In this document: piece by piece, positions 876-18,010 of the stretch
Layout of the letters: each line of letters starts with the position of its first letter
How positions within the stretch are numbered: the stretch's first letter is position 1
Assembly (NCBI RefSeq): GCF_019396355.1
Contig: NZ_JAHKRK010000005.1
Coordinates: 55,386 to 89,500 of the forward strand
Reading direction: 5' to 3'
Length of the DNA: 34,115 nucleotides
From: Pseudonocardia nigra
GTDB taxonomy: Bacteria > Actinomycetota > Actinomycetes > Mycobacteriales > Pseudonocardiaceae
Program-made: the position numbers and the translations under genes
The notes under the pieces: model-generated
What the model was told of the DNA's origin: nothing
Seen by the model: only the letters and a program-made list of their open reading frames with translations
Databases searched by the model: none

Positions 876-915
876 GTGAGTGGATACGAGTGCCAGAGCA
901 CTCGTATCCACTCAC
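876..915. repeat. 40-bp perfect palindrome (17-6-17) at a convergent gene end; probable bidirectional terminator
   Basis: Left arm GTGAGTGGATACGAGTG (876-892), loop CCAGAG (893-898), right arm its exact reverse complement (899-915). It lies between the mrp stop (871) and the stop of the leftward aminotransferase gene (912-914); the right arm itself contains that stop codon. A second element with identical geometry and the same outer and inner bases lies at 30070-30109, so this is a repeat family as well as a hairpin. The terminator role is inferred from position and stem strength; there is no T-tract, which is common in high-GC actinobacteria. Confidence 0.8.
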
Positions 916-2168
916 GAGCGCGAAGCGCTGACCGCCTCGGACCACAGCGCCACGCCCTCGTCCACCTGCTCCGCGGTGACGATCAGGGGCGGGATCATGC
1001 GCACGACGTTGCCGAACGGGCCGCACGTCAGCAGGAGCAGGCCACGCTCCGCCGCCGCCGCGTGGGCGCGGAGCGCCGCGGCCGGGTCGGGCGCGCCGTC
1101 AGGAGTGCAGAACTCGTTGCCGACCATCAGCCCGAGCCCGCGGACGTCGGCGATGCCGGGGTGGTCGGCGGCCACCTTGCGCAGGCCGTCGCGCAGCCGC
1201 ACGCCTTGCTCCGCGGCGTTCTCGACGAGGTTCTCGTCCTCGATCACGTCGAGGGTGGCGAGCGCGGCCGCGCACGCCACCGCGTTGCCGCCGTAGGTGC
1301 CGCCCTGCGAGCCGGGGCGCGCCTTCGCCATCAGCTCCTGCGACGCGGCGATCCCCGACAGCGGGAAGCCCGACGCGAGGCCCTTCGCGGTGATCAGGAT
1401 GTCGGGGGCGATGCCCTCGGCGTGCTGGTGGCCCCAGAACCGACCGGTCCGTCCGAACCCGGTCTGCACCTCGTCGGCGATGAGCAGGATGCCGAGCGCG
1501 TCGGCCCGCTCCCGCAGCCCGGCGAGGAACGCGGGCGGCGTGGGCACGTAGCCGCCCTCGCCCAGCACCGGCTCGATCACGAACGCGGCGACGTCCGTGG
1601 CCGGGGCCGCCGTGATCAGCAGCCGGTCCAGCTCGCGCAGGCAGAACGCGACGGCCTCGTCCTCGCTCCACCCGTACCGGAACGCGTACGGGAAGGGCGC
1701 GAACGCGACGCCGCCCATCAGTGGGCCGATCCCGGCGCGGATCTTCGCCCCGGACGTGGTGAGCGCCGCCGCGCCCATCGTGCGGCCGTGGAAGCCGCCC
1801 TCGAACGCGACGACCAGCTGGCGGCCGGTGGCGTGCCGCGCCAGCCGCACGGACGCCTCGACGGCCTCGCTGCCCGAGTTGAGGAAGAACACACTGTCCA
1901 GGCCCGCCGGGAGCACGTCGCCGAGCCGCTCGGCCAGCCGCAGCAGCGGCTGGTGCATCACGGTCGTGTACTGCCCGTGGATCAGCGTGGCCACCTGCTC
2001 CTGCGCGGCGGCCACCACCCGCGGGTGGCAGTGCCCCGTGCTCGTGACGCCGATGCCCGCGGTGAAGTCCAGGTGCCGGCGGCCGTCGGTGTCGTACAGG
2101 TACACGCCTTCACCGCGGGCGGCCTGCACGGGCGTCGCCTGCTGGAGGACGGGGGACAGCTGGGCCAT
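912..2168 (-). CDS. Class III PLP-dependent aminotransferase (4-aminobutyrate aminotransferase-like)
   Basis: A 418-residue fold-type I aminotransferase of class III, expected to transfer an omega-amino group (GABA or a similar omega-amino acid) to an oxo acid in the cytosol. Visible features: NSGSEAVE at 97-104 (cofactor phosphate loop), ADEVQTGFGRTG at 231-242 with the pyridine-N aspartate Asp232, and the PLP lysine in ITAKGLASG (Lys262). The ATG at 2168 was chosen because AGGAG lies seven to eight bases upstream and homology starts here; the frame stays open far upstream without family similarity. A perfect palindrome, ATTGTCGACAAT, lies 24 bp upstream and may be a GntR-type operator. GabT cannot be told from related omega-aminotransferases by sequence alone, so no symbol is given. 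Confidence 0.9.
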   Translation of the reverse strand: MAQLSPVLQQATPVQAARGEGVYLYDTDGRRHLDFTAGIGVTSTGHCHPRVVAAAQEQVATLIHGQYTTVMHQPLLRLAERLGDVLPAGLDSVFFLNSGSEAVEASVRLARHATGRQLVVAFEGGFHGRTMGAAALTTSGAKIRAGIGPLMGGVAFAPFPYAFRYGWSEDEAVAFCLRELDRLLITAAPATDVAAFVIEPVLGEGGYVPTPPAFLAGLRERADALGILLIADEVQTGFGRTGRFWGHQHAEGIAPDILITAKGLASGFPLSGIAASQELMAKARPGSQGGTYGGNAVACAAALATLDVIEDENLVENAAEQGVRLRDGLRKVAADHPGIADVRGLGLMVGNEFCTPDGAPDPAAALRAHAAAAERGLLLLTCGPFGNVVRMIPPLIVTAEQVDEGVALWSEAVSASRS

Positions 2169-2191
2169 GCGCGCGCTCCTGACGTTGTCGG

Positions 2192-2203
2192 ATTGTCGAC
2201 AAT
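2192..2203. promoter_or_regulatory. Candidate GntR/FadR-type operator upstream of the aminotransferase
   Basis: Perfect 12-bp palindrome ATTGTCGACAAT, centred 30 bp upstream of the aminotransferase ATG. The GT-N-AC core is the general form of FadR-subfamily operators. A related sequence (ATTGTCAACATC, 9 of 12 identical, read on the minus strand) lies in the divergent promoter near 7316-7327 in the same locus, which also encodes a GntR/FCD regulator. Binding by that regulator is inference. Confidence 0.5.
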
Positions 2204-2235
2204 TCGACCTCCCGATGGAAGCACGCCACAGGGGC

Positions 2236-2254: not shown

Positions 2255-3967
2255 TCAGCCCCTCGGACCCCTCCCGCCACCGGAGCCGCCCGGAACCTCG
2301 TCCGGCCGGCCCGGAACGCCGTCGGGCGGACCGGGAACGCCATCGGGCGGGCCCGGGACCCCCGGCGGGGGCCCGCCCGGTCCGCCCTGGCCGCGACCGG
2401 CGTCGAGGCCGACGAGCACGGGGTCGTGGTCGGAGGCGCGGAACGGGCCGGACGCGAAGAACGCGTCCACGCCGCTGTACTGGTAGGCGTCCGACTCGTC
2501 GGCGTTGATGTGCCACACGTCCACGCCGGTCACCGTGTCCCCGAGACGGAAGGCGTGGTCGAGCACGCCCTGCTCGCCGTCGAAGACGTAGGTGTAGCGG
2601 TCGGCCGCGGGCAGGGCGCCGAGCGTGTCCACCAGCCCGGCGTCCTCGAGGACCTCGATCGGATCCTCCTCGGAGTAGCTGTTGAAGTCACCCATGGCGA
2701 GGATGTCCCCGGCCCCTCGCCCGAGCTCGGCGACGAACCCGGCCAGCGCCCTGGCCTGCTCCACCCGGTCGGCGTTGTAGCAGCCGGCGCCGGGGAAGGG
2801 CTCGGCGTTGTCACCCGTCGCCCCGCCGCAGCTCTTGGACTTGAAGTGGTTCCCGATCACCGTGAACGGGCTGACGCCCGCGGTGAAGGTGCCCGCGTAG
2901 GGCGCCCGCGCGTTGTCGAAGGCCGGGTCGACGAGCACGGTCGCGGTCTCCCCGACGAGCCGCACCGCGCCCGGCTGGTAGATGAGCGCGTTGGTGATCT
3001 CGTCCGTGGTGCCCGGACCGCTGCCGTAGCCCTCGGGGTTCGGCACCGCGGCCCAGACCGGGGCACCTGCCGCCTCGTTGAGCGCGTCCACCAGCGACTG
3101 CGTCGCGGCGCCCCCGTTGTTCTCGATCTCCTGCAGGGCGACCACCTCGGCCCCCAGTGCGGAGATCGCGGAGACGATCTTCGCCTCCTGCCGGGCGAAC
3201 TCCTCGGGCGTGGCCGCGCCGCGTAAACCCAGCGTCGTGAAGTAGTTCAGCACGTTGAAGCTCGCCACCTGCACGTCGCCGCCGACGGCGTCGGGCGCCG
3301 CGGGCCGCGGGTTCACCGGCGCGAACGTGACGTCCTCCGTCGGCTGCACCCGGTAGGCGTCGAACCCGTAGCCGAGGATGCCGGTGAGCCCGGCCACGGT
3401 GTCGCCGCGCCGGATCGGGTCGCCCGCCGCCAGGTACGCGATCGGCTCGAGCCCTTCGCCGTTCCGGCCGTCGTCGAGGATGATCCGACGCGCCGCGTTG
3501 GCCTGCGCGAGCTCCTGGGCGGCGGAGCCGTCGGCCACCTCGGTGGGCTCGACCAGCGGCGGGACGGTCGAGAGGAGCAGCTCGCCGAAGTCGTCGGCGT
3601 TGCGGTTCTCCGTGACGGCGAGGGTGTCGTAGGTGGTGAGCATCCCCTCGAAGCGCTCCAGGTCGGCGCGTTCGGCGGTCGGCAGCGCCACCGCGGTGGG
3701 CTCGGGAAGGGCGGCGCCCTGCTCGCACACCGCGAGCGCGCTCACCTCGTCGATCTGGGTGTCCGGGTCGGGTCGCCGTGGCGTGCGGTTCACATCGGCC
3801 CGGCAGCGTGCGGGCGTCCCGCCTGCCGTTCCCAGGAGCCGTTGAATGCGGAACAGCCCGGTCTTCTCCTGGGCGCGGCCGATGAACAACACCCCCTCCG
3901 CTCGGAGGTGGCGGGGTCGCCGTCCCCGACTGCTGCAGCCCGGGCTCGCCCAGCGCGGTTCATACAC
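2255..3967 (-). pseudogene. 5'-truncated ExeM/NucH-type extracellular endonuclease (endonuclease/exonuclease/phosphatase fold)
   Basis: From about residue 70 (base 3760) to the end this matches secreted ExeM/NucH-type nucleases. The EEP domain motifs are present in order: VASFNVLNYF, VALQEIENN, GNHFKSK, MGDFNSY, VLDHAF and ASDHDPV, so the metal and phosphate-binding residues look intact. Full-length relatives usually have about 800-900 residues with a signal peptide and an N-terminal OB-like domain. Here the first ~69 residues resemble nothing I know, contain no hydrophobic export signal, and the family sequence begins abruptly at TQIDEVSALAVCEQG. No missing part is seen in other frames up to 4065. 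I read this as loss of the 5' end; a working cytosolic enzyme from an internal start cannot be excluded. The C-terminus is a Pro/Gly tail with PPDGVPG-type repeats. Bases 3968-4065 hold no recognisable gene. Confidence 0.6.
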
Positions 3968-4065: not shown

Positions 4066-4440
4066 TTAGTCCTCCAACCACTCGGTGACGAAGTGGTCGT
4101 TGGCGTGGACGTCGGTCATCTCGAGGCGTCCGGGTCCCATGTTCTCGAACTTGTGCGGGGTGTTCGCCGGGGCCACGAGGATCTGACCCGCGGTGGCGAC
4201 CCGCACCTCGTCGCCGATGGTGAACCTCGCCGTCCCCGCCCGGACCACGAAGGTCTCGTCGTAGGGGTGCCGGTGCAGCCGCGGCCCGGCGCCGATCTCC
4301 TCCGTGCCGACCATGATGAGCGAGACCGAGCTGCCGTGATCGCGGCCCTCGAACTCGCCGCGAAGCACGCCGTCGACGAGGTACGAGTGGAGTGATGTCG
4401 AGTCCATGCGGAAGTGACCGGCGCCGTGCCCGGAACTCAT
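4066..4440 (-). CDS. Small cupin-domain protein
   Basis: A 124-residue single-domain cupin. The first motif reads GPRLHRHPYDETFVVRAG, with two His and a Glu typical of metal binding; the second is GQILVAPANTPHKFENMG, giving the fourth ligand (His). Such small cupins are isomerases, dioxygenases or ligand sensors; the sequence does not decide which. It is the last gene of the leftward operon, its ATG six bases after the GntR stop, so it is probably cotranscribed with the racemase-family genes. A second ATG at 4407 is a possible start. No strong ribosome binding site is seen for either, consistent with translation coupled to the gene before it. Confidence 0.85.
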   Translation of the reverse strand: MSSGHGAGHFRMDSTSLHSYLVDGVLRGEFEGRDHGSSVSLIMVGTEEIGAGPRLHRHPYDETFVVRAGTARFTIGDEVRVATAGQILVAPANTPHKFENMGPGRLEMTDVHANDHFVTEWLED

Positions 4441-4446
4441 CGCCGC

Positions 4447-5154
4447 TCAGGCGGGAACGGCCGGTGACCCCGGGGCGGGCGGGACGACCACGGGCGCCAG
4501 GATGCGCTCCACGGCGTCGGCCATGTGCGCCTCCAGCACCACGGTGAGCCGCGCGGCGTCGCCGTCGCGCACGGCGTCACGCAGCTCCCGGTGCTCGGTG
4601 ATCAACGCGTCGGCGGGCGGCGCGGTGTCCTGCAGCGCGGCGAGGCACATGCGCGTCTCCACCAGCAGCGCGTCGGCCATCCGCCGCAGCCGCGGGCTGC
4701 CGGACGCCGCGACGAGCTCGGCGTGGAAGGCGTGGTCGGCGTCGGCGAGTGCCACCGGGTCGTCCGCCACCTCCTCCATCGCCTCGAGGGCCGCGGTGAG
4801 CCGCTCCGTGGCGGCCGTCCGGTCCCCGGACATCAGCAGCAGGCCCGCCGCCCGCTCGACGGCGCTGCGGGCGATGTAGACGTCGCGCACGTCCGCGGCG
4901 TCCAGGTCGCGGACGAACAGCCCGCGGTGGCGCTCGCTGCGCAGCAGCCCCTCCGCGACCAGGCGCTGCATGGCCTCGCGCAGCGGACCCCTGCTCACCC
5001 CCAGCCGGGCGGCGAGCTCGACCTCACCGAGCTGGGTGCCGGGCGGAAAGACGCCACGCATGATCGCTTCCCGGATCCGGTCCGCGACGATGGCCGCCGT
5101 CGACCGGCGCTCCACCGGTTCGAGGTCGCTCAGGTCCACTGCCACTCCCGTCAC
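4447..5154 (-). CDS. GntR-family regulator, FadR/FCD subfamily
   Basis: A 235-residue regulator with an N-terminal winged helix (about residues 18-82: IVADRIREAIMRG, PGTQLGE, LGVSRGPLREA, GLFVRDL) and a C-terminal FCD ligand domain with likely metal ligands Asp140, His144, His188 and His210. FCD proteins usually repress catabolic genes and release DNA when they bind an organic acid. The GTG start overlaps the stop of the upstream racemase-family gene by four bases (GTGA), so it is translated as part of that operon and would control its own synthesis. Candidate binding sites are the ATTGTC-type sequences at 2192-2203 and about 7316-7327. The ligand is unknown; a dicarboxylic or hydroxy acid made by the locus is a reasonable inference. 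Confidence 0.92.
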   Translation of the reverse strand: MTGVAVDLSDLEPVERRSTAAIVADRIREAIMRGVFPPGTQLGEVELAARLGVSRGPLREAMQRLVAEGLLRSERHRGLFVRDLDAADVRDVYIARSAVERAAGLLLMSGDRTAATERLTAALEAMEEVADDPVALADADHAFHAELVAASGSPRLRRMADALLVETRMCLAALQDTAPPADALITEHRELRDAVRDGDAARLTVVLEAHMADAVERILAPVVVPPAPGSPAVPA

Positions 5155-5897
5155 GCGCGTTCGATGGGCGCTCCGCCTCCGTCACCCGCGCGGGCGAACA
5201 CCCTACCCAGCCCCGACCGCGGCACGTCCGCCCCGGCGAGCCGCAGGCCCTGCCAGATGCTCACCTGGTTGGCCGTCAGCACCGGCTTGCCGACGCGGGC
5301 GTCGAGCGCGTCGAGCAGGCCGACCGTGTGCAGCGCCGTGTCCGGCAGCAGCACCGCCTCCGCGTCGGGGTGGTCGGCCGCCGCCGCGAACGCCAGCACG
5401 TCCTCGGGTTCGAGGGTGCCGACCTCGGCGGCCGTGATGATGCCCCGGGCGGAAAGCGAGAGCACCTCGACGCCCGCCCGTGCGAGGAACGCGACGAAGC
5501 GCTCGGCGACGTCGTCGGGGTAGGTGGCGCCGACCGCCACGCGGGTGACACCGAGCCGAGCGCACGCGTCGACGAACGCGAACGACGTGCTCGACGCGGG
5601 CACGCCCGCCGCCGCCCCGAGCGCCGCCACCTGCGCCGCGGCGCCGTCCCAGCCGAACACGAAGCTCCCGCTCGTGCACGCCCACACGACCGCGTCGAGC
5701 GGCTCGGCCATCGCCTTGACCCCCTCGGCGAGGACGTCGTCGGCGCCGATGTCGAGCAGCGCGTCCACGCGGTGGGCGTCCTCGCGCATCTCCGTGTGCA
5801 CGAGCTGCAGCCGGGGCCCGCCCAGCAGCGACTCGGCGCGCGGGTAGTCGTCCTCGGCCGAGAAGCCCGGGTAGAGGATGCCGATGGTGGGGGTCAT
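5151..5897 (-). CDS. Asp/Glu racemase-superfamily protein (maleate isomerase/arylmalonate decarboxylase type) with only one catalytic Cys
   Basis: A 248-residue protein related to maleate cis-trans isomerase and arylmalonate decarboxylase. The first-half motif WACTSGSF keeps the catalytic cysteine (Cys74). In the second half the position matching the partner cysteine is Asp186 (LLPDTAL), compared with FISCTNL in the neighbouring paralog. The family motif GKPVLTANQVSIW is intact. Two-cysteine members racemise or isomerise; wild-type arylmalonate decarboxylase has only the second-half cysteine. A natural member with only the first-half cysteine may therefore do different chemistry. The ATG at 5897 overlaps the upstream paralog stop (ATGA), and the end overlaps the GntR start (GTGA). 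The frame stays open upstream to 6500 but that part belongs to the paralog's strand region and lacks homology. Substrate unknown. Confidence 0.88.
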   Translation of the reverse strand: MTPTIGILYPGFSAEDDYPRAESLLGGPRLQLVHTEMREDAHRVDALLDIGADDVLAEGVKAMAEPLDAVVWACTSGSFVFGWDGAAAQVAALGAAAGVPASSTSFAFVDACARLGVTRVAVGATYPDDVAERFVAFLARAGVEVLSLSARGIITAAEVGTLEPEDVLAFAAAADHPDAEAVLLPDTALHTVGLLDALDARVGKPVLTANQVSIWQGLRLAGADVPRSGLGRVFARAGDGGGAPIERA

Positions 5898-6757
5898 GCC
5901 GCTCCTGCCGGTCGTACTGCACTGATCCGAGTGGGGCCGATCTCGACGGGTGCCGGAGGGTCCGGCACCGCCGTGAGCTCGGCCGGGGCGGTGGTGGTGA
6001 GCTGCACCTCGGCGGCCGCGCCGGTGTCGAGCAGGCTGCCGCGGCCCACCGCGACCCGGCCCATCGCCCGCAGCGCCGCCCACATGGTGACCTGGTTCGC
6101 CGTCAGCACCGGCTTGCCGAGCGCCTGCTCGAGGGGCTCGATGAGGTCGTAGGTGGGCAGGTTGGTGCAGCTGATGAATAGGGCGTCGGCGGTGTCGGTG
6201 TCGACCGCGCGCACGATCTCGACGACCTCGGCGTAGGTGACCCGCCAGATGTGGCCCAGCAGCCCCAGCCCCTCGCACGACACCGTGCGGACGCCGTACT
6301 CGGCCAGGTAGCCGACGAGCCGGCGGGTGACCGGCTCGACGTAGGGCGTGGCGATCGCCAGGCGCGCGACGCCGAGCGCGGCCAGCGCGTCGATCAGCGC
6401 CCCGGACGTGGTGCAGGCGGCGGGCGCGCCGGCGTCGACCATTGTGCGGCGGAGCACGAGCTCGCCCGCCGCGCCGTCGACGAAGCTGCCCGATGTGCAC
6501 GCGTAGGCCACGACGGCGGGCTCCGGCGTGAGGACGTCGCGGGTGGCGCGGCGGACCGCCCGCCGGTCACCGCACGCCACCGCCATCTCGACCGTGACCG
6601 GGGTGGTGAAGAACGGCAGCCGCGTGAGGTAGAGCGACACGTCGTCCGGCACCCAGCGCCACAGCTCGCGGTCGAGCGCGAAGTCGAACGGTGCGACCAC
6701 GCCGATCCCCTGCTGACGGACGGGTTCGGCGAGTCCGACCGACAGCTCGGTGGGCAT
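5894..6757 (-). CDS. Maleate cis-trans isomerase-like protein (Asp/Glu racemase superfamily), two-cysteine type
   Basis: A 287-residue paralog of the next gene. Both catalytic cysteines are visible: Cys87 in YACTSGSF and Cys197 in FISCTNL, with GKPVLTANQVTMW after the second. Maleate isomerases use this pair to turn maleate into fumarate; related enzymes racemise or decarboxylate similar acids. About 35 residues at the C-terminus (from about 250) are Ala/Pro/Thr-rich and outside the domain. The ATG at 6757 lies six bases after the DUF3830 stop and the 3' end overlaps the next gene by ATGA, so the three genes form one translational unit. With an amidase across the promoter, an amide-to-dicarboxylate-to-fumarate type route is possible, but the substrate is not shown by the sequence. 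Confidence 0.88.
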   Translation of the reverse strand: MPTELSVGLAEPVRQQGIGVVAPFDFALDRELWRWVPDDVSLYLTRLPFFTTPVTVEMAVACGDRRAVRRATRDVLTPEPAVVAYACTSGSFVDGAAGELVLRRTMVDAGAPAACTTSGALIDALAALGVARLAIATPYVEPVTRRLVGYLAEYGVRTVSCEGLGLLGHIWRVTYAEVVEIVRAVDTDTADALFISCTNLPTYDLIEPLEQALGKPVLTANQVTMWAALRAMGRVAVGRGSLLDTGAAAEVQLTTTAPAELTAVPDPPAPVEIGPTRISAVRPAGAA

Positions 6758-6763
6758 TGCGGC

Positions 6764-7273
6764 CTACCGGGCGTCTGCGCCGTCGAGGCGCTCGTAGACC
6801 AGCCGCTCCCCGACGCTGCCGGACCGCCACACGTCGTGGCACGCCTCGGCCATCACGTCCAGCCCTTCGACGATCGAGGCGTAGACGTTGCCCGGCACCC
6901 AGCCGACGTCGCCGTTGATCAGGAGGTTGTTGCGGCCGTAGAAGATCGCGAGGTCGATGGCGCCTTCGTCGAGGTCGATGCCCTGGTCGGCCTTGAACGC
7001 GGTGTCGAGCATGCCGCCTGCGAAGTCGAACAGCACGACGTCACCCGGGATCGGGGTGACGGTGGTGTTCTCGCGGCCGATCTGCGCGAACCGGGGCACC
7101 ATCGTGTAGACCTCGTTGCGCGCGTACTTCGCGTGCTGGGCGTCGCCGCCGAGAGGACCGTTGTCCAAGGCGTTCCACACCGCGGCGCTCGTGCGCGGTG
7201 CGTCCTTCTCGAGGAGTTCGGCCACGCACGACACACCGCGTCGGGCGAGACTGATGCGGAGGAACTTCGACAT
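6764..7273 (-). CDS. DUF3830 family protein (cyclophilin-like fold)
   Basis: A 169-residue protein recognised as DUF3830 by the opening KFLRISL, the central block KYARNEVYTMVPRFA, and TPIPGDVVLFDF followed by AIFYGRNNLLI. The family is assigned a cyclophilin-like fold and has no established reaction as far as I know. I chose the ATG at 7273 rather than 7279 because GGTGGG lies seven bases before it; the frame also extends to 7324 but into the promoter. It is the first gene of the leftward operon, directly behind the divergent promoter and just before two racemase/isomerase paralogs, so it probably works on the same substrate or product. No signal peptide or membrane segment is seen. Confidence 0.85.
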   Translation of the reverse strand: MSKFLRISLARRGVSCVAELLEKDAPRTSAAVWNALDNGPLGGDAQHAKYARNEVYTMVPRFAQIGRENTTVTPIPGDVVLFDFAGGMLDTAFKADQGIDLDEGAIDLAIFYGRNNLLINGDVGWVPGNVYASIVEGLDVMAEACHDVWRSGSVGERLVYERLDGADAR

Positions 7274-7317
7274 ATCCATCCATTCCCACCGGAGGGGCCC
7301 CCCGCGCGCCGCGGATG

Positions 7318-7346
7318 TTGACAATCATACGAGCGCTTCCTAGCGT
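7318..7346 (+). promoter_or_regulatory. Rightward sigma-70-type promoter of the dehydrogenase-amidase pair, with overlapping operator-like sequence
   Basis: TTGACA (7318-7323), a 17-base spacer, then TAGCGT (7341-7346). A start near 7353 leaves about 30 bases to the GTG at 7383. The sequence ATGTTGACAATC (7315-7326 region) covers this -35 and the -10 of the leftward promoter and resembles the palindrome ATTGTCGACAAT at 2192-2203, so it is a candidate GntR site. Confidence 0.65.
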
Positions 7347-7351
7347 GTCAA
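7324..7351 (-). promoter_or_regulatory. Leftward sigma-70-type promoter of the DUF3830 operon
   Basis: On the minus strand a perfect -35 hexamer TTGACA (7346-7351) is followed by a 16-base spacer and TATGAT (7324-7329), one base off the -10 consensus TATAAT. A start near 7317 would give a 5' leader of about 44 bases to the ATG at 7273. It overlaps the rightward promoter almost completely, so one bound repressor could block both. Confidence 0.7.
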
Positions 7352-7382
7352 TGCGCCGGACCGCCGCTGGAAGGTCGTTAAC

Positions 7383-8327
7383 GTGCCCGTTACCGCAGCT
7401 CAGGGGCCCGCCCCGACCATATGCGTGCTGCACGGCGAAGATCGTCCACCGGGCCTCCAGGCCGATCATCTGCGGTTCGCCACGGAGGACACGCTCGCCG
7501 ACGCGTTGCCCGGCAGCGAGGTCCTGCTCGTCTGGGACTTCACCTCCGACGCCGTCCGCGACGCCTGGCCCGCCGCGGACTCACTCCGCTGGGTGCACAC
7601 CGCGAGCGCCGGTGTGGACCGGCTGGTCTTCCCCGGCCTCCTGGACTCGCCGGTGACCCTGACCAATTCCCGCGGCGTGTTCGACGCACCCATGGCCGAG
7701 TACGTGCTCGGCCTGGTGCTGGCGATGGCCAAGGACCTGCCCGGCACGCTCGCCGCGCAGGGCAGGCGCGAGTGGCGCCATCGAGAGACCGAGCCGGTGG
7801 CCGGCCGGTGCGCGGTGGTGGTCGGCGGCGGACCGATCGGCAAGGCGATCGCGCGCCTGCTCGAGGCCGTCGGGATGCAGGTGGAGCTGATCGGGCGCCG
7901 CGAGTTCCCCGCGCTGCCCGATGCGCTCCCCCGCGCCGACTGGCTCGTGCTCGCGGCCCCGCTCACCGACACGACCCGCGGGATGTTCGACGCGGCCGCG
8001 CTCGCCCGATTGCGCCCGTCCGCCCGGGTGATCAACGTCGGGCGCGGCGCGCTGGTCGTCGAACCCGACCTCGTCGACGCGCTGCGGGAAGGCCGCATCG
8101 CCGGCGCCGCGCTCGACGTCTTCGCCCGCGAACCGCTCCCGGTGGACTCGCCACTGTGGGAGCTGCCGGGCGTGATCGTGTCGCCGCACATGTCGGGCGA
8201 CCTCGTCGGCTGGCGGGACGCGCTCGTCGAGGTCTTCACCGACAACCTCATCCGCTACCGCGCGGGCGAGCCGCTGCGGAACGTCGTGGACAAGTCGTTG
8301 GGCTACGTGACCGGAGGTACCTCATGA
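7383..8327 (+). CDS. D-2-hydroxyacid dehydrogenase (NAD(P)-dependent, GhrA/phosphoglycerate dehydrogenase type)
   Basis: A 314-residue cytosolic oxidoreductase expected to interconvert a 2-oxo acid and a D-2-hydroxy acid. The Rossmann motif is VVGGGPIGKAIA (about 147-157); GRR (171-173) after the second strand suggests a preference for NADP. The catalytic residues are Arg221 (NVGRGALV), Glu250 (FAREPLP) and His269 (VSPHMSGD). The GTG at 7383 has GGAAGG about eight bases upstream and sits roughly 30 bases after the predicted transcription start. The stop overlaps the amidase start (ATGA), so the two enzymes are coupled. Substrate unknown; the context suggests an intermediate of the locus formed after amide hydrolysis or transamination. 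Confidence 0.92.
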   Translation: MPVTAAQGPAPTICVLHGEDRPPGLQADHLRFATEDTLADALPGSEVLLVWDFTSDAVRDAWPAADSLRWVHTASAGVDRLVFPGLLDSPVTLTNSRGVFDAPMAEYVLGLVLAMAKDLPGTLAAQGRREWRHRETEPVAGRCAVVVGGGPIGKAIARLLEAVGMQVELIGRREFPALPDALPRADWLVLAAPLTDTTRGMFDAAALARLRPSARVINVGRGALVVEPDLVDALREGRIAGAALDVFAREPLPVDSPLWELPGVIVSPHMSGDLVGWRDALVEVFTDNLIRYRAGEPLRNVVDKSLGYVTGGTS

Positions 8328-9766
8328 CGAGCACGGCCGCGCGCACCGCCGCGGACCTCACCGCCTCCGAGCTCCTGGCCGCGTACCGGGCGCGGGAGCT
8401 GTCCCCCGTCGAGGTGATCCGTGACGTGCTGGACCGCGTGGACCGGCTCGACCGACACGTCAACGCGTTCTGCCTGGTGGACGAGAACGCGGCCCTGGCG
8501 GCCGCCCGCGGCTCCGAGGAGCGCTGGTCGCGCGGGGAACCGGTCGGGCTCCTCGACGGCGTGCCCGTCTCGATCAAGGACATCCTGCTCACGGCGGGCT
8601 GGCCCACGCTGCGCGGCTCGCGCACCGTCGACCCGGCGGGCCCCTGGACGGTGGACGGCCCGCACGTGGCGCGGGTCCGCGAGCACGGCGCCGTCCTGTT
8701 CGGCAAGACCACCACGCCCGAGCTCGGGTGGAAGGGCGTGACCGACAACCCGCTCACCGGCATCACCCGCAACCCGTGGGACCCGACCTGCACCGCGGGC
8801 GGCTCGTCCGGCGGCAGCGCGGCGGCCGTCGCCCTCGGGATGGGCCTGCTCAGCCTCGGCACCGACGGTGGCGGCTCCGTGCGCATCCCGGCCGCGTTCA
8901 CCGGCACCACCGCGCTCAAGCCCACCTACGGGCGCGTCCCGCACTACCCGGCCAGCCCGTACGGGACGTTGGCACACGTCGGACCGATGACCCGTACGGC
9001 CGTGGACGCGGCGCTGCTGCTCGACGTGATCTCCGGGACGGATCCGCGCGACCCGTGGGCGCTCGCCCCGGCCCCGCCGGCCCGCGAGCGGCTCGACGCC
9101 GGCGTGGCCGGCCTGCGCATCGCCGTCAGCCCCGCGCTGGGATACGTCGACGTGCACCCCGAGGTGGCGGCCGCGTTCGCCGCGGCGGTCGAGGTGTTCG
9201 CACGGCTCGGCGCGCACGTCGAGGAGGCCGACCCCGGCTTCAGCGACCCCGTGGCGGCGTTCGAGGTGCTGTGGTTCGCCGGTGCCGCCAAGTCGACCGA
9301 GCACCTCGGGCCCGCCGAGCGGGAGCTGATGGACCCGGGCCTGGTCGAGGCCTGTGAGCAGGGCGCCCGCGCCTCGGCGCTGGACTACCTCGGTGCGATG
9401 GGCGTGCGCAACGACCTCGGGATCCGGATGGGCGAGTTCCACACCCGCTACGACCTGCTACTCACCCCGGCGATGCCGATCCCGGCGTTCGAGGCGGGCG
9501 TCGAGGTGCCCGCCGGGTGGCCGCGGAAGCGGTGGACGTCCTGGACGCCGTTCAGCTACCCGTTCAACATGACGCAGCAGCCGGCCGCGAGCGTGCCGTG
9601 CGGGTTCACGACCGCGCGGAGCGAAGGCGGAGCGCGCAACGGCGCTGACGGGCTGCCGGTGGGGCTGCAGATCGTGGGACCCCGGCACGCCGACGACGCA
9701 GTGCTCGCCGCCGCCCACGCGTTCCAGCAGGCGACGGACTGGCACCTGCGCCGACCGGCCCTCTGA
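8324..9766 (+). CDS. Amidase-signature family amidase
   Basis: A 480-residue hydrolase of the amidase signature family, cleaving a C-N amide bond to an acid plus ammonia or amine. The Ser-cisSer-Lys triad is visible: Lys85 (VSIKDILL), Ser161/Ser162 in AGGSSGGSAAA, and the nucleophile Ser185 in DGGGSVRIPA. The ATG at 8324 has GGAGG six bases upstream and overlaps the dehydrogenase stop by four bases. Near the C-terminus, residues 429-440 (TTARSEGGARNG) look like a short in-frame insertion between the usual CGFT and ADGLPVGLQIVG segments. GatA is unlikely because gatB/gatC are absent and the context is catabolic. Substrate unknown. Confidence 0.93.
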   Translation: MTSTAARTAADLTASELLAAYRARELSPVEVIRDVLDRVDRLDRHVNAFCLVDENAALAAARGSEERWSRGEPVGLLDGVPVSIKDILLTAGWPTLRGSRTVDPAGPWTVDGPHVARVREHGAVLFGKTTTPELGWKGVTDNPLTGITRNPWDPTCTAGGSSGGSAAAVALGMGLLSLGTDGGGSVRIPAAFTGTTALKPTYGRVPHYPASPYGTLAHVGPMTRTAVDAALLLDVISGTDPRDPWALAPAPPARERLDAGVAGLRIAVSPALGYVDVHPEVAAAFAAAVEVFARLGAHVEEADPGFSDPVAAFEVLWFAGAAKSTEHLGPAERELMDPGLVEACEQGARASALDYLGAMGVRNDLGIRMGEFHTRYDLLLTPAMPIPAFEAGVEVPAGWPRKRWTSWTPFSYPFNMTQQPAASVPCGFTTARSEGGARNGADGLPVGLQIVGPRHADDAVLAAAHAFQQATDWHLRRPAL

Positions 9767-9825: not shown

Positions 9826-10230
9826 TCAGGTGGCGTCGGGGTCGATCGGCGGCCGCTCGTTCTTCGCCAGGCTCTCCTTGGCCGCTGCCGCGGGCGGGGT
9901 GGCGGTGGCGCCGTTCGACTTCGTGAGGTTCGGCCCCGTGGCGTGGCCGTTGGGCTTCACGGGCGGGTCGTCGAACAGCGTGCGCTGCACCGCGGTGCGC
10001 GGGTTGAAGTTGCGCAGCCCGCGCAGCTCCTCGAGCGGCTTGCGCAGCTCGTCGAACTCCGGGCCGAGCTCGCCGCGGAGCTGTTCCCTCGCACCCGTGG
10101 CGTAGTCCTTGACCTGACGGATCGAGCGGCCCAGCCACGAGGCCGCGGAGGGAAGCCGTTCCGGGCCGAGGATGAACAACCCGGCCACGATCAACACGAT
10201 GATCTCGCCCCAGCCGACGCTGTCGAACAC
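9826..10230 (-). CDS. tatB: Sec-independent protein translocase subunit TatB
   Basis: A 134-residue membrane protein of the twin-arginine export system. One N-terminal transmembrane segment (about residues 8-21, [14 protein letters not shown]) is followed by the PERLP hinge, an amphipathic helix and a polar, Ala/Pro-rich cytoplasmic tail. The start MFDSVGWGE (GTG at 10230) is typical of actinobacterial TatB. It lies 97 bp behind htrA in the same direction, matching the sigE-rseA-htrA-tatB order known from mycobacteria. TatA/TatE proteins share the fold; the long tail and the neighbours favour TatB. The 59 bases between it and the convergent amidase gene hold nothing I can name. Confidence 0.93.
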
Positions 10231-10327
10231 GGCACCACCCTACGGGGTCGGAAAGTATGATCGCTGGAAAAGCTGTCCCCGGTTCCGGCGTTCGCTCCGC
10301 GTGCCCACCCGGTTCGGCCGTTGTTCC

Positions 10328-11953
10328 CTAATCGGACGTGAGCACCACCGACACCGTGAGCGGGCGGCCCTCCCTGATCAGCTCGACCTCGACGGTGTCG
10401 CCCGGGTTGCGTTCCCGGACGGCGACGACGAGCTCGTCGGCTCCGCCGATCGTGCGGTCACCGACCCGGACGATCACGTCGCCCTCGACGATGCCCGCCG
10501 CCGCGGCCGCGCCGCCCTGCTGCACGTTCTGCACCTGAGCGCCGTCGGTGATGCCGTCGGTGACGGAACGGGCGTTGACGCCGATCTCGGCGTGGCGCAC
10601 CGCGCCGCTGCGGATCAGCTCGTCGGCGATCACGCGCGCGTCGTCGATCGGGATCGCGAACCCGAGGCCGATCGAGCCGCCCTCGCCCATCCCGAGGCTG
10701 CGGATGGCGGTGTTGATCCCGACGACCGCGCCCGTGGAGTCGACCAGCGGACCGCCCGAGTTGCCGGGGTTGATCGCAGCGTCGGTCTGGATGGCATCGA
10801 TCACGGCGTTCAGGTCGGTGCCGCTCCCGTCGAGCCGGACCGGACGGTCCAGCGCGCTGACGATGCCGGTGGTGACCGTGCCCGCCAGGCCCAGCGGCGA
10901 GCCGATCGCGATCACCCCGTCGCCCACGGCGAGGGCCGAGGACGACCCGATGCTCGCGACGACCGGGTTCGTCACGGCCACCCGGATGACGGCCAGGTCC
11001 GTCTTCGGGTCGCGGCCCACGACCTGGGCCGCGCTGCGCGTGCCGTCGTGGAAGATCGCCTCGATCCGGCCGCCGTTGACCTCGGCCGCGGGGGCGATCA
11101 CGTGGTTGTTGGTGAGCACGTAGCCGTCCGGGTCGATGACGACGCCGGATCCCGTGCCGCCCTCCTCGCCGACGCGGACCTCGATCGAGACCACCGCGGG
11201 CACCGTGCGGGCGGCGATGTCGGCCACCGAGCCGGGCGGCCGCTCCTTGCCCTCGATCGCCTGGGTGATCGTCGGGTCGGGGTCGGTGAGGCCGGAGGCG
11301 CCGTCGGCCGTCATCCGGCCGACGAGCCCGCCCCCGGCGCCGATGAGCAGCGCGACCAGTGCGAGCCCGGCCAGCGCCCGCGGCTCGACGCGCCTGCCGA
11401 ACAGCACCTCCCGGAGGCTGAGCCGGGCGCCCTCACCGCGCGGCGGCGAGGGTTCCGGCTCGCCCGTCTCGGCGGGCGGACCGAGGGCGGCCGGGCTGTC
11501 GGGGTCGCGCCAGGGATCATGGTCGGCGCCCTCGTCCCAGAACGTCGCGTCGTCCGGCGCGTGCCCCGACCCGTTCGACGGGGGTCGCTGCAGCGCGGCC
11601 GCGCCCGGGTTGGGGCGGCCGAAGGCACTGGCCAACGCTGTGGGCGGGGGCGCAGCCACCGTGGTGCGGGTCGGCATCGCGCCGGAGCCCCGCGCGGCGG
11701 CGAACCCGCCGTCCACGCCATTGGGGCGGCCGAACACCGAGGCCGCCGCGGCGTCCACGGGCGGCCGGTCGAGCGGCTTGGGGGCCAGTCGCGGCGGTTC
11801 GCTGCGGGCCACGGGCACCGTGGGCGTCTCGTCGGTGGTCGCGGCGCCGGTTTCGGCGGTGGGGTCGCCGGGGGCGCCGGCGGTGGTGTCCCGGCCCGGC
11901 TCATCGCCGGCGCGGTCACCCGAACGCGTCGCGGGGGCGCTGCGTTCGTTCAT
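10328..11953 (-). CDS. htrA: Membrane-anchored HtrA/DegP-type serine protease with a PDZ domain
   Basis: A 541-residue protein. Residues 1-190 are a long acidic/Pro-Ala-rich cytoplasmic part, about 194-211 a single transmembrane segment, 245-440 a trypsin-like domain, and about 450-541 a PDZ domain. The catalytic triad is His284 (TNNHV), Asp319 (KTDLAVI) and Ser399 (GNSGGPL). It should degrade or refold damaged envelope proteins outside the membrane. The cytoplasmic part repeats the motif FGRPN at 74-78 and 111-115. It follows sigE and rseA in the same direction, 94 bp after rseA, as in M. tuberculosis. A 15-bp tandem duplication (AGCCGGATCAGGG unit, about 12026-12054) crosses the rseA stop just upstream. 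Confidence 0.95.
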   Translation of the reverse strand: MNERSAPATRSGDRAGDEPGRDTTAGAPGDPTAETGAATTDETPTVPVARSEPPRLAPKPLDRPPVDAAAASVFGRPNGVDGGFAAARGSGAMPTRTTVAAPPPTALASAFGRPNPGAAALQRPPSNGSGHAPDDATFWDEGADHDPWRDPDSPAALGPPAETGEPEPSPPRGEGARLSLREVLFGRRVEPRALAGLALVALLIGAGGGLVGRMTADGASGLTDPDPTITQAIEGKERPPGSVADIAARTVPAVVSIEVRVGEEGGTGSGVVIDPDGYVLTNNHVIAPAAEVNGGRIEAIFHDGTRSAAQVVGRDPKTDLAVIRVAVTNPVVASIGSSSALAVGDGVIAIGSPLGLAGTVTTGIVSALDRPVRLDGSGTDLNAVIDAIQTDAAINPGNSGGPLVDSTGAVVGINTAIRSLGMGEGGSIGLGFAIPIDDARVIADELIRSGAVRHAEIGVNARSVTDGITDGAQVQNVQQGGAAAAAGIVEGDVIVRVGDRTIGGADELVVAVRERNPGDTVEVELIREGRPLTVSVVLTSD

Positions 11954-12047
11954 CGCGCTGCTGACTCCTGGGCTCTGCGGTCACCGGCCGCACCCAGCCT
12001 GCCGCAGCGGCGGTGAAGTCCGCGTAGCCGGATCAGGGGCAGCCGGA

Positions 12048-12770
12048 TCAGGGCAGCCCGCGGAAGGACGCGGGAAGGCGCTGGACCCGGTCGAGCAGAT
12101 CCGCCCGCTGGGCAGGGGTGGCGGCGGGTGTGACCCGCAGCCTGGCGTCGACGACACCCGCCGGGGCGCCGCCGAGCACACCGCGGTCGGCCGCCGTGGG
12201 CACCGGGGACGGGCCGCCCGATGCGCTGGGCAGACCGAAGGCGAGCGCGCCGAGGGCGAGCCCGGACACGGCGACACCGGTGCCGAGCCGGAGGCCGCGG
12301 TGTGCGGGAGGCCGCCTGCCGTGGTGCGGCACGGGCCCGTCGAGTCCGGCGGGCGGTGCCTCCGCCAGCGGGGTGCCCACCGGGGCCTGCTCGGTGAGCT
12401 GCACGTCGCGCCGCCCGCGGCGGGCGTCGTCGCGTTCGGGGCGCAGCACCGTGACGAGCTCGCCGTCGGCGGTCATCGAGAGGCCGGCGGGTGGCCCGGG
12501 CAGATCGGTGTCCTGCGGTATCGCACGCAGGCTGGACAGCAGCGACGACGGCAGGCTGGGACAGTCGGCCGTGCGCAGGGCCGCCCTGGCCTGGCCCTGC
12601 GCGACCACCTGGGCGGCGCACTCGGGGCACTGCGCCAGGTGCTCGGTGGCACGGGTGTGGGGGCCAGGGGCGAGCTCGCCGTCGACGTATGCGACGACGG
12701 CATCCGACGACAGATGGTCGTGTCCCCAGTCGGGGACCGTGACCGAGATGCGCCAGCGGCCGTCCCTCAC
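12048..12770 (-). CDS. rseA: Anti-sigma-E factor RseA-type, zinc-binding (ZAS) domain
   Basis: A 240-residue anti-sigma factor. The N-terminal ZAS motif His44-x3-Cys48-x2-Cys51 ([13 protein letters not shown]) binds zinc and holds the ECF sigma factor; mycobacterial RseA is redox- and phosphorylation-sensitive. A likely transmembrane segment lies at about 162-180 ([15 protein letters not shown]), followed by about 60 external residues, so this copy looks membrane-anchored. The GTG start overlaps the sigE stop (GTGA), giving tight coupling of sigma and anti-sigma synthesis. The assignment rests on the motif, the position between sigE and htrA, and the general layout; sequence outside the ZAS domain is poorly conserved. 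Confidence 0.88.
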
Positions 12771-13480
12771 CCGCGTACCTCCTCCGACGCTCCGTCTCCC
12801 GCCGCCCCGGACGCCGTGGCCTGCGCGGCAGCGCGGTGGCGCTCCAGAGCGCCGCGCAGTGCGGCCCGCCCGCGGTGGATCCTGCTTCTCACCGTACCGA
12901 GCTTCACGCCCAAGGTGGCGCCGATCTCCTCGTAGGAGAGGCCTTCCACGTCACACAGCACGACGGCGGCGCGGAACTCGGGCGGCAGCTCGTCGAGGGC
13001 GGCCTGCAGCTGCGGGTCGAGGTGGGTGTCGGAGAACACCTGCTCAGGCTCGGGGCCGCGGCCGGGCAGCCGGTCGGAGTCGTCCGGCAGCGCCTCCATC
13101 CGAATGCGGGAGCGGCGGCGGACCATGTCGAGGAAGAGGTTGGTGGTGATGCGGTGGAGCCAGCCCTCGAACGTGCCCGGCTTGTACGACGCCAGCGAGC
13201 GGAACACTCGCACGAACGTCTCCTGGGTGAGGTCCTCGGCGTCGTGGGGGTTGCCGGTGAGGCGGTAGGCGAGCCGGTACACGCGGTCGGCGTGCTCCCG
13301 GACGATCTCGTCCCAGCTCGGCGGCGACCAGTCGGCGCCCTCGCCGGGAAGTGCCATCCCACCGGACGCGGGGCCGCCTGCCACGGGACTGCTCGGCAGC
13401 GTGGCTGTGCCGTCGCTCATCGTTCGGGTCGCACCTCCTGCGGCGGGTCGTGCCTTGCGGCCAACGAAGCGCCGGGGCAT
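12767..13480 (-). CDS. sigE: ECF RNA polymerase sigma factor SigE
   Basis: A 237-residue ECF sigma factor for envelope stress. Region 2 carries [31 protein letters not shown] and [18 protein letters not shown]; region 4 carries [19 protein letters not shown] and [16 protein letters not shown]. These blocks are near-identical to what I recall of M. tuberculosis SigE. The first ~50 residues are variable. Possible starts are 13480 (ATG, GGGAA upstream) and the ATG at 13420, which has AGGAGG 13 bases upstream; multiple SigE starts are known in mycobacteria, so the longest is given here. The gene is divergent from an O-methyltransferase and leads the operon-like row sigE-rseA-htrA-tatB. Confidence 0.95.
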
Positions 13481-15517: not shown

Positions 15518-15688
15518 GCCGACGCTCCGATCGCGGTCCCGGGAGCCGGGTCAGCCGGCAGCATCGTCACGGAGCCGACCCTAGTGCTCTCCCTGGGTGT
15601 CCGGCCACCGCTACACGATGTCGAACCGGCGAAAACCATGCGGCGGGCATACCCGCGGGCCCGCCGTCGATGCCTTACGGTTCGCGGA

Positions 15689-16849
15689 GTGCGGATCGGC
15701 CTGCTCACCCGCGAGTTCCCCCCGGACGTCTACGGCGGGGCCGGGGTGCACGTGGAACATCTCGTGCCGGCGTTGCGCGGGCTCGTCGACGTCGAGGTGC
15801 ACTGCTTCGGCGACGCCCGTCCCGGGCAGCCGGAGACCCACGCGCACCGCCCGCCCGCCGCGCTCGCCGACGCGAACCCGGCGTTGCAGACCCTCGGGGT
15901 CGACCTGTCGATGGTCGCGGCACTCGCCGGGGCCGACATCGCCCACTCCCACACCTGGTACGCGAACATGGCCGGGCACCTGGCCAAGATCCTCCACGAG
16001 GTGCCGCACGTCGTCACCGCGCACTCGCTGGAGCCACGCAGGCCGTGGAAGGCCGAGCAGCTCGGCGGCGGCTACCGGCTGTCGTCGTGGGTGGAGCGCA
16101 CGGCGTACGAGGCGGCCGACGCGGTGATCGCGGTGAGCGCCGGGATGCGCACCGACGTCCTGGAGTGCTACCCGGCGCTCGACCCGGCCCGGGTGCACGT
16201 GGTGCACAACGGCATCGACACGGACTTCTACCGCCCCGACCCGAACCGCGACGCCGTGCGCGCGGCAGGTGTCGACCCGGACCGCCCGAGCGTCGTGTTC
16301 GTCGGCCGCATCACGCGCCAGAAGGGGCTCGCCCACCTGGTGGCCGCGGCCCACCGGATCGACCGGGACGCCCAGATCGTCCTGTGCGCCGGCGCGCCCG
16401 ACACCCCGGAGATCGCCGAGGAGACCGAGAAGGCGGTCGCCGAGCTCAGCGCCGCCCGCCCGGGGGTGGTGTGGGTGCGGCGCATGCTGCCCACCGCCGA
16501 GGTGCGGCAGCTGCTGTCGGCGGCCACCGTGTTCGTCTGCCCGTCGGTGTACGAGCCGCTCGGCATCGTCAACCTCGAGGCGATGGCCTGCGGCACCGCC
16601 GTGGTGGCCTCCGACGTCGGGGGCATCCCCGAGGTCGTCGACCACGGCGGCACCGGCCTGCTGGTGCACTTCGACGAGCACGCCGTGGAGGAGTTCCGGA
16701 CCGGGATCGCCGATGCCGTCAACGAGCTGCTGGCCGACCCGCAGCGGGCGGCGGCGATGGGCGCCGCGGGGCGCGCGCGGGCGGAGCGGGAGTTCTCCTG
16801 GGAGCAGGCCGCGGCCCGCACGGTGGAGATCTACCGCGCTCTCGGCTGA
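15689..16849 (+). CDS. glgA: GT4-type glycogen synthase / alpha-maltose-1-phosphate synthase (GlgA/GlgM)
   Basis: A 386-residue GT-B glycosyltransferase of family GT4, the short actinobacterial GlgA type. N-terminal features: LLTREFPPDVYGGAGVHVEHL (donor-site glycine loop), then HSHTWYANMAGH and TAHSLEPRRPWK. C-terminal features: FVGRITRQKG and the E-x7-E region VYEPLGIVNLEAMACG, which binds the ADP-glucose ribose and phosphates. In M. tuberculosis the homolog (Rv1212c) mainly makes alpha-maltose-1-phosphate for the GlgE pathway, so GlgM is a fair alternative name. The GTG at 15689 was chosen because homology begins there; the frame stays open far upstream, antisense to glgC, without meaning. 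No clear ribosome binding site. A small hairpin, GCGGG-CATA-CCCGC, lies at 15643-15656. Confidence 0.93.
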   Translation: MRIGLLTREFPPDVYGGAGVHVEHLVPALRGLVDVEVHCFGDARPGQPETHAHRPPAALADANPALQTLGVDLSMVAALAGADIAHSHTWYANMAGHLAKILHEVPHVVTAHSLEPRRPWKAEQLGGGYRLSSWVERTAYEAADAVIAVSAGMRTDVLECYPALDPARVHVVHNGIDTDFYRPDPNRDAVRAAGVDPDRPSVVFVGRITRQKGLAHLVAAAHRIDRDAQIVLCAGAPDTPEIAEETEKAVAELSAARPGVVWVRRMLPTAEVRQLLSAATVFVCPSVYEPLGIVNLEAMACGTAVVASDVGGIPEVVDHGGTGLLVHFDEHAVEEFRTGIADAVNELLADPQRAAAMGAAGRARAEREFSWEQAAARTVEIYRALG

Positions 16850-16852
16850 GGG

Positions 16853-17401
16853 CTACCGCACCCTCGCCCGCACGCGGGCCCGGTGGGCCGCCACGGCGGA
16901 CCGGTTGGCGCACGCCGAGGAGCAGTAGCGGCGGGCGGCGTTGCGCGAGGTGTCGGCGAACACCCGTGCGCAGCCATCGGCCGCGCACCGGCCGTGCCGG
17001 TCGAGCCCGTACTCCGACACGAGCATGGCGAGCGCGAACGCGGTGGTGGAGCGCACCCGGTCGACCACGCCGGCCTCCGGCGGCGCGTAGTGCAGGTGCC
17101 AGCGCTGCCCGTCGTGCCCGGACAGGTGCGGCTCGACCCGCACATCGGCCAGCAGGGCGTTGACCGCGACCGCGGCGGCGTCGAGGTCGGCGGCGTCGAA
17201 GACCGTGCGCAACCGCCGCGCCCAGGCCCGCAGCGCGGGCTCGACCGAGCCCGGGGCCGTCTCGGCGAGGTAGCCGTGCTCCAGGAGCACGCCCCGCATC
17301 CGGCCGCCGGGCGGCGGGTCCTCGTCCGGGGCCGTGGCGACGGCGTTCACGAGGTCGACGGCCGCGCCGAGCGCGTTGCTGCGGTAACCGATGAAGTCCA
17401 A
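16853..17401 (-). CDS. CGNR zinc-finger / ABATE-domain putative regulator
   Basis: A 182-residue protein with the stress-linked ABATE-type N-terminal domain (ALGAAVDLVNAV) and a C-terminal CGNR zinc finger: CAADGCARVFAD, then YCSSACANRSAVAAHRAR. The four cysteines suit zinc binding, and the basic tail suits nucleic-acid binding. CGNR proteins are presumed transcription regulators, mostly untested. The start is TTG at 17401 (family proteins begin MDFxGY); GGGAG lies ten bases upstream. It ends three bases from the convergent glgA gene. It faces a 60-residue zinc-ribbon gene across 75 bp that contain AT-rich dyads, so self-control and control of that gene are plausible. Confidence 0.88.
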   Translation of the reverse strand: MDFIGYRSNALGAAVDLVNAVATAPDEDPPPGGRMRGVLLEHGYLAETAPGSVEPALRAWARRLRTVFDAADLDAAAVAVNALLADVRVEPHLSGHDGQRWHLHYAPPEAGVVDRVRSTTAFALAMLVSEYGLDRHGRCAADGCARVFADTSRNAARRYCSSACANRSAVAAHRARVRARVR

Positions 17402-17659: not shown

Positions 17660-17688
17660 CGGGCGCGCGTGGTTGCGGTGCCGGCGGT

Positions 17689-17896: not shown

Positions 17897-17925
17897 AATG
17901 ATCTCGCCGGATCGAGCCGGAAGAA

Positions 17926-17978: not shown

Positions 17979-18010
17979 AACCGGGGTCCCCGCGTCACGC
18001 GGGGTTGAGG

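Follow-up and report, generated by a model that had tools for sequence, protein, structure and literature searches.

The window analysed here is a 34,115-nucleotide stretch of the Pseudonocardia nigra genome, in which positions 4066-9766 hold a compact divergent locus with a gene for DUF3830 (PF12903), a family for which we know of no reaction. Comparative analysis suggests that the locus belongs to a GntR-controlled regulon for the catabolism of ectoine and/or 5-hydroxyectoine, an explanation given slightly better than even chances; the substrate and each reaction are inferred. Ectoine is a cyclic amidine and a widespread osmolyte that acts as salt protectant and as nutrient. A palindrome recurs across actinobacteria before genes of this set and, in one Arthrobacter-like genome, also before an importer of the ectoine type and a relative of the ectoine hydrolase DoeA, so that the locus likely represents an undescribed route of ectoine use. 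A sequence-only reading of the window had concluded that the enzyme set fits no known pathway, a statement now superseded, as the predicted operator, the neighbouring genes and the family matches point to ectoine/5-hydroxyectoine catabolism. If the explanation is true, it provides a candidate ectoine route for DUF3830-bearing Actinomycetota, which mostly lack DoeA, and attaches to DUF3830 a function that could mean an unrecognised way of opening a cyclic amidine. It also makes that function directly testable with named substrates.

Conservation of the gene set

Named loci were drawn from a scan that kept its best 80 relatives of the window DUF3830 out of at least 548, and the closest named ones were Pseudonocardia species. 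These loci were fetched by DUF3830, so its presence in them reflects selection. Gene presence was scored by identity thresholds of our own choosing, and the 61 loci of 19 kb or longer were considered full length. All six core partners, namely a class-III aminotransferase (AT3), the GntR regulator, two EutA-like proteins (ISO1 and ISO2), a D-2-hydroxyacid dehydrogenase (DH) and an amidase, were present in 51/61. Individually, the amidase, GntR and ISO2 genes were found in all 61 loci, DH in 59, ISO1 in 58, AT3 in 54, an aldehyde dehydrogenase in 23 and the cupin in 2. The aminotransferase at 912-2168, included with a "perhaps" in the sequence-only reading, is by these counts part of the conserved set. 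The cupin had been counted as a member as well; at 2/61 it was rejected as a pathway component and is regarded as a local addition.

Within the genus, DUF3830 was present in 55/62 Pseudonocardia genomes. Twenty Pseudonocardia regions were fetched and 18 held the long DUF3830 type; AT3, GntR, ISO2, DH and the amidase occurred together in 17 of the 18, joined by ISO1 in 13/18, and the cupin was found in 2/18. Across the phylum, DUF3830 was detected in 43/396 genomes, 18 of the 43 with the long type. The DH, ISO1, ISO2 and amidase genes each lay within reach in 16/18 phylum loci with long DUF3830, the two exceptions being a 5-kb contig (L067) and a locus of genome G069 (L052) whose ISO and amidase genes lie about 90 kb off, in L169. 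Among 80 phylum genomes, the amidase (E<=1e-150) occurred in 17/17 genomes with long DUF3830 versus 2/63 others, and ISO2 in 17/17 versus 5/63; the five ISO2 genes from genomes without DUF3830 adjoin EhuBCDA, of the ectoine importer family. The linkage exceeds chance and recurs across Actinomycetota. The two arms are conserved together, scattering of the genes in relatives, which would have refuted the sequence-only reading, was sought and not found, and the central place given to DUF3830 is supported. The set is also present in the locus L084 of P. dioxanivorans CB1190. The shorter DUF3830 type (L070, L071, G238:C23) sits in unrelated neighbourhoods, with three copies in tandem in G238; the two fetched loci of this type, L070 and L071, contain none of the set.

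Predicted operator and promoters

In a comparison of 100 loci (1.89 Mb), a palindrome with the core ATTGTnnACAAT was found at 204 exact and 34 one-mismatch sites, compared to 0 for a reversed control pattern. Exact sites occurred in 93/100 loci, and 237/238 sites (<=1 mismatch) lay upstream of a labelled pathway gene, using a site-to-gene window of -40 to 250 bases with starts extrapolated from tblastn, such that one gene may collect several sites. The sites are not independent, since the 100 loci include L169 and L052 of one genome as well as related species.

The exact core was present in 85/87 spacers between DUF3830 and DH, the window being one of the two exceptions. A rightward TTGACA-17-TA(G/C)nnT was found in 86/87 of these spacers and a leftward TTGACA-16-TAnnAT in 73/87. 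The window spacer (103 bases, 7280-7382) contains leftward and rightward promoter-like sequences face to face, overlapped by GGATGTTGACAATC, a degenerate copy of the spacer palindrome GATTGTTGACAATC, in agreement with the single compact divergent promoter region that had been proposed for both arms. The copy before AT3 lies 23 bases upstream of the AT3 start and is the sole exact ATTGTNNACAAT in the 8.49-Mb own genome. Judged by what operators of FCD-GntR proteins generally look like, the GntR protein would bind the ATTGTnnACAAT palindrome and is a predicted repressor of both arms. Neither GntR nor a palindrome site was found in four DUF3830 loci (L054, L056, L059, L060) of family f5, whose genomes are probably Streptomyces.

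Links to ectoine import and hydrolysis

A link to ectoine was observed in G069, which appears Arthrobacter-like. In L052 copies of the palindrome stand before DH, before the gene of a DoeA relative and before DUF3830/AT3; in L169 they stand before an MFS gene, GntR/ISO2, ISO1 and the EhuB gene of an EhuBCDA run. This EhuB scored 267.4 bits (cut-off 190.9), and the best model of the DoeA relative was DoeA, at 43% identity to the Leisingera protein. The G069 DUF3830 nearly matches, in a comparison by eye, the solved DUF3830 structure 3kop of Arthrobacter.

EhuABCD genes adjoin set members in f5 (L054, L056, L059, L060), f17 (L068) and f4 (L169), and EhuA and EhuD lie beside set members on the short contig L067 (f48). 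All four Ehu proteins of L059 exceed equivalog cut-offs. Other carriers in the set were of the BCCT (L063-L065) and ProP-like MFS (L053, L055, L057, L062) types. EhuB over cut-off was found in 3/5 cluster-bearing versus 0/9 other f2 genomes, too few to lean on. The own genome also holds EhuBCDA, with EhuB (219.7 bits) and EhuA (346.5 bits) both over cut-off.

Related associations were observed outside the DUF3830 loci. In G359, which lacks DUF3830, the palindrome stands before AT3 in a run that also contains DH, aldehyde dehydrogenase and DoeA-relative genes. On alphaproteobacterial plasmids, Ehu genes lay beside the amidase in 4/6 opened records (17 with a close amidase were listed): Mesorhizobium AR02 and AR07, Microvirga VF16 and Sinorhizobium mexicanum, the first three also with DoeA-like M24, EutA-like and DH genes. 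The AR02 M24 protein shares 57% identity with Leisingera DoeA, and the AR02 racemase shares 39% with EutA; the Mesorhizobium DoeA-like protein scored 608.4 bits against the DoeA cut-off of 613. A DUF3830 search of the plasmids gave three distant Rhizobium matches (29-31%), and the neighbourhood of the Nitratireductor racemase H4 was not ectoine-like.

Canonical DoeA and DoeB were searched for in 56 genomes, 55 of which carry long DUF3830. No protein exceeded the DoeA/EutD cut-off (TIGR02993, 613) in any of the 56, and DoeA relatives at E<=1e-60 were found in 2/55 DUF3830 genomes (G069 and G002); the best match of the own genome, an M24 gene that adjoins LysR and enolase-family genes, reached 165.4 bits. 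The deacetylase DoeB/EutE (TIGR02994) was likewise over cut-off in 0/56, with three weak matches at 78-84 bits, and the own genome had no match reaching E<=1e-20. Leisingera EutB and EutC (tblastn) matched no gene in the window and 99 other loci, to which that search was limited. With few DoeA relatives and no DoeB over cut-off, a pathway that does use ectoine must rely on different enzymes for ring opening and deacylation, and DUF3830 and the amidase are the candidates of the set for these steps.

Two further candidates were considered and set aside. An M24 gene of the own genome (G000:C246) was considered as a hidden DoeA, but it is only 28% identical to DoeA and sits with LysR and enolase-family genes; it is 49% identical to the M24 gene beside DUF3830 in L062. 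This M24 peptidase gene lies between the LysR and enolase-superfamily genes at L164:3740-7050, and relatives occur in G017 and G002, the G002 copy again beside an enolase-superfamily gene. A luciferase-like monooxygenase, present beside the Ehu/ISO2 run in five of nine f5 loci, was dropped as an f5 ring opener since it neighbours Ehu/ISO2 with and without DUF3830 alike. A gene for a 252-residue protein lies by the same run in 8/9 f5 loci (L174-L178, L054, L056, L059, L060). In L165, L166 and L168, EhuBCDA is followed by a second EhuB-like gene in opposite orientation; the second gene of L167 is in the same orientation.

A conserved trio of DoeA relative, class I/II aminotransferase and M20 peptidase was observed at L052:5796-9442 and L183:9772-13599, with identities of 72-73% and 54% between the two genomes, and has the look of another actinobacterial module for ectoine, of the DoeA type. 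The own genome encodes an ectoine synthase EctC (183.5 bits; L192, G000:C47), so the host may both make and consume ectoine.

Protein families of the set

Both ISO proteins matched Pfam Amdase (95.8 and 89.6 bits, cut-off 25.9). Their best NCBIfam model was EutA (TIGR02990; ISO1 116.9 and ISO2 102.1 bits, far below the equivalog cut-off of 318); the arylmalonate decarboxylase model gave 91.9 and 90.5 bits, below the cut-off of 225. The label "maleate-isomerase-like" of the sequence-only reading thus holds at the superfamily level and not beyond it. EutA-superfamily enzymes use a cysteine pair. Both superfamily cysteines, as in Leisingera EutA, are kept in 95/95 ISO1 copies; in 103 ISO2 copies the first position is C (95) or S (8) and the second D (100) or G (3), never cysteine. 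ISO1 grouped with EutA and the Mesorhizobium protein, apart from ISO2, in a tree of 23 rows that held no maleate isomerase or arylmalonate decarboxylase rows (96/98 support, bootstrap not settled). ISO2 was kept where ISO1 was lost, in 4/18 genus regions and 3/61 named loci, and also in f5 genomes without DUF3830, so that ISO2 is more than a helper of ISO1.

The nearest characterised fold relatives of DUF3830 appear to be Pictet-Spenglerases, which work via iminium intermediates. Invariant residues of DUF3830 are H49, K51, R54, E56, D80, R116, N117, N118 and D124. These enzymes (KslB and McbB) differ from DUF3830 in having two-domain-sized chains, with about 20% identity and no significant sequence match (McbB E 0.27). 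The set was also present in Marinactinospora thermotolerans (L113), the source of McbB.

Proposed pathway and alternatives

The intermediates of the canonical ectoine route are taken from passages of PMC13188858 and PMC5924519, and their assignment to proteins of the DUF3830 set is our own. DUF3830, a predicted C-N ring-opening enzyme, would open the cyclic amidine, converting ectoine to N-acetyl-diaminobutyrate, and the amidase, a predicted deacylase, would strip the acetyl group to yield diaminobutyrate. AT3, a predicted diaminobutyrate-type transaminase, would then form aspartate semialdehyde, which the aldehyde (semialdehyde) dehydrogenase, where present, would convert to aspartate. ISO1 and ISO2, the EutA-like pair, may together with DH handle the hydroxylated branch. 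Within this reading, ectoines are quite likely the substrate class, and the chance that DUF3830 and the amidase stand in for DoeA and DoeB is put somewhat below even. A fuller proposal is tentative and rather unlikely as a whole: DUF3830 would constitute a new class of amidine-ring-opening enzyme on the cyclophilin/Pictet-Spenglerase fold, replacing DoeA/DoeB together with an amidase-signature deacylase phylum-wide in actinobacteria, with ISO2 as a cysteine-depleted paralogue paired with an EutA-type enzyme.

Several observations weigh against the ectoine regulon. The two window sites (<=2 mismatches) are not significant alone, as 17/100 shuffles reach that number, and palindromes with <=1 mismatch in the whole own genome number 3, equal to the reversed control; the weight of the operator comes from the 100-locus comparison. 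The one-mismatch sites of the own genome, on C279 and C321, include one near another GntR gene (31%) and none near set genes. The fetched Pseudonocardia Ehu loci (L165-L168, own genome included) lack the palindrome, making the importer link indirect in that genus, and the Ehu loci fetched from f2, f45 and f5 genomes likewise showed no palindrome nearby. Irrespective of DUF3830, every one of the nine f5 genomes carries EhuB, whose presence alone does not discriminate there, so genome-level EhuB co-occurrence was dropped as proof for f5. Furthermore, five f5 genomes carry EhuBCDA beside ISO2 (four also DH) without DUF3830, amidase or ISO1, indicating that the set is not always whole. The amidases of G018 and G022, the two found outside genomes with long DUF3830, stand alone, and the amidase relatives of Tistrella and Nostoc showed no Ehu genes nearby. 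Scores of 414.6 bits (G069) and 425.4 bits (G359) leave the DoeA relatives below the cut-off of 613, AT3 is just 31% identical to Leisingera atf, and a fold likeness of DUF3830 would show no function. Finally, simple replacement is weakened by G069, where DUF3830 and the amidase coexist with a DoeA relative and an M20 peptidase.

That co-presence suggests a division of labour and favours an unlikely but substantial alternative, in which regulon and substrates are the same and the role of DUF3830, the amidase and ISO1 is confined to the 5-hydroxyectoine branch (hydroxylated ring opening or dehydroxylation); ectoine itself would then depend on DoeA, in genomes that have it, or on a ring opener yet to be found. 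Consistent with this view, these three genes are jointly absent from five f5 genomes in which ISO2 and Ehu persist, and ISO1 groups with EutA, for which a passage of PMC5924519 proposes, in Proteobacteria, a role at the hydroxyl centre of 5-hydroxyectoine. However, DUF3830 and the amidase persist in the regions and named loci that have lost ISO1, which uncouples ISO1 from the pair, and 53/55 DUF3830 genomes are without a DoeA relative at E<=1e-60, which would leave no known enzyme for ectoine there. Less probable still is that the set serves a different small nitrogenous compound, such as a cyclic amidine, a lactam or an N-acyl amino acid (e.g. a gamma-aminobutyrate (GABA) derivative), taken up via Ehu-type, BCCT or ProP-type carriers. 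The carriers do vary by lineage, the nearest solved structures to AT3 are GABA transaminases, and models of succinate-semialdehyde dehydrogenase (SSADH) come nearest to the neighbouring aldehyde dehydrogenase, though it scores below their cut-offs (567.4 vs 646.35); yet canonical ectoine clusters also carry SSADH-like and class-III aminotransferase genes, EhuB and the DoeA relative stand under one palindrome in G069, and the Mesorhizobium DoeA-like protein falls under 5 bits short of the DoeA cut-off.

In the route of the sequence-only reading, hydrolysis of an amide would give a dicarboxylate, unsaturated or 2-substituted, that maleate-isomerase-like enzymes isomerise for central metabolism; this route now appears highly improbable. 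Amidase and Asp/Glu-racemase-superfamily genes are present, and ISO1 keeps the two superfamily cysteines and has maleate isomerase chains among its matches (E 8.1e-17), but the EutA and arylmalonate decarboxylase models fit both ISO proteins better and the second cysteine is missing from 103/103 ISO2 copies. Nothing points to maleate; the regulon partners are instead an ectoine-type importer, a DoeA relative, an aminotransferase and a semialdehyde-type dehydrogenase.

Comparison with known ectoine clusters

The canonical proteobacterial cluster ehu/ueh-eutABC-doeAB-asnC-ssd-atf (e.g. Leisingera L159) shares with the DUF3830 loci an EutA-like protein, a class-III aminotransferase and GntR-superfamily control, as well as an SSADH-like dehydrogenase in many relatives and EhuABCD adjoining or under the same palindrome in some. 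In contrast to that cluster, the window locus lacks DoeA, DoeB, EutB and EutC and has instead DUF3830, the amidase, DH and a second EutA-like paralogue; its regulator is of the FCD type, whereas EnuR of the canonical cluster is a MocR-type protein. Alphaproteobacterial plasmid clusters (ehu-M24-M20-racemase-dehydrogenase-amidase-M24; L157, L188, L190) are similar in their amidase (49% identical in AR02), EutA-like protein, dehydrogenase and EhuABCD, and differ by a near-canonical DoeA and M20 peptidase and by DUF3830, which was not found there by tblastn.

According to sections of a review, ectoine consumers are known only from Proteobacteria (PMC5924519), and parts of a 2026 paper report only tentative EutD-based clusters in Gram-positives (PMC13188858). 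The latter clusters, as described there, resemble the DUF3830 loci in predicted ectoine use, absence of eutE and variable carriers (MFS, BCCT, UehPQM, EhuABCD), but were found via EutD and EutB, the Bacillales type being pucR-eutBCD-atf with abgB-thrA-adh; neither "amidase" nor "DUF" occurs anywhere in the text of PMC13188858. No literature on DUF3830 was found among open-access papers, and no open-access paper describing the gene set was found by title or abstract start.

Features of the window

Direct reading of the sequence confirmed the seven genes at 4066-9766, five leftward and two rightward, placed as in the sequence-only reading (Table 1). The compact layout it described is also evident, with 6-base gaps for DUF3830/ISO1 and GntR/cupin and 4-base overlaps for ISO1/ISO2, ISO2/GntR and DH/amidase, and its statement that no transporter gene lies within 4066-9766 is correct.

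Table 1. Genes and predicted regulatory elements at and beside the DUF3830 locus, in window positions.
Feature	Positions	Strand	Basis or remark
Class-III aminotransferase AT3	912..2168	-	Pfam Aminotran_3 413.8 bits
Palindrome GATTGTCGACAATT, predicted GntR operator before AT3	2191..2204		same position in relatives
Cupin	4066..4440	-	Pfam Cupin_2; outside conserved set
GntR/FCD regulator	4447..5154	-	Pfam GntR 68.1 bits (cut-off 27), FCD 66 bits (cut-off 24.3)
ISO2, EutA/AMDase-superfamily protein without second cysteine	5151..5897	-	Pfam Amdase
ISO1, EutA-like racemase-superfamily protein with both cysteines	5894..6757	-	Pfam Amdase
DUF3830 (PF12903), cyclophilin-like fold	6764..7279	-	Pfam 192.7 bits (gathering score 26)
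Degenerate operator copy GGATGTTGACAATC in divergent spacer	7313..7326		aligns with GATTGTTGACAATC
Predicted rightward promoter TTGACA-17-TAGCGT	7318..7346	+	read from sequence; absent from the list of the consensus scanner
Predicted leftward promoter TTGACA-16-TATGAT	7324..7351	-	11/12 consensus matches
D-2-hydroxyacid dehydrogenase family (DH)	7383..8327	+	Pfam 2-Hacid_dh_C 148.3 bits
Amidase-signature hydrolase AMID	8324..9766	+	NF004815 740.8 bits (cut-off 506)

Six frames of 210-642 codons (15670-17163, 17669-19147, 23025-23837, 24268-26196, 30102-30734 and 32423-34084) had no Pfam match at E<=1e-5, and some may be spurious products of GC-rich DNA. An exo/endonuclease/phosphatase-family gene (2255-3967) is inserted between the cupin and aminotransferase genes; this label was given to 2 genes among the 100 loci, in the window and in L083. 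Beyond the amidase, positions 9826-13480 hold leftward genes for a TatA/B-type protein, a trypsin-like/PDZ protease, a zinc-finger anti-sigma-like protein and a sigma-70-family factor.

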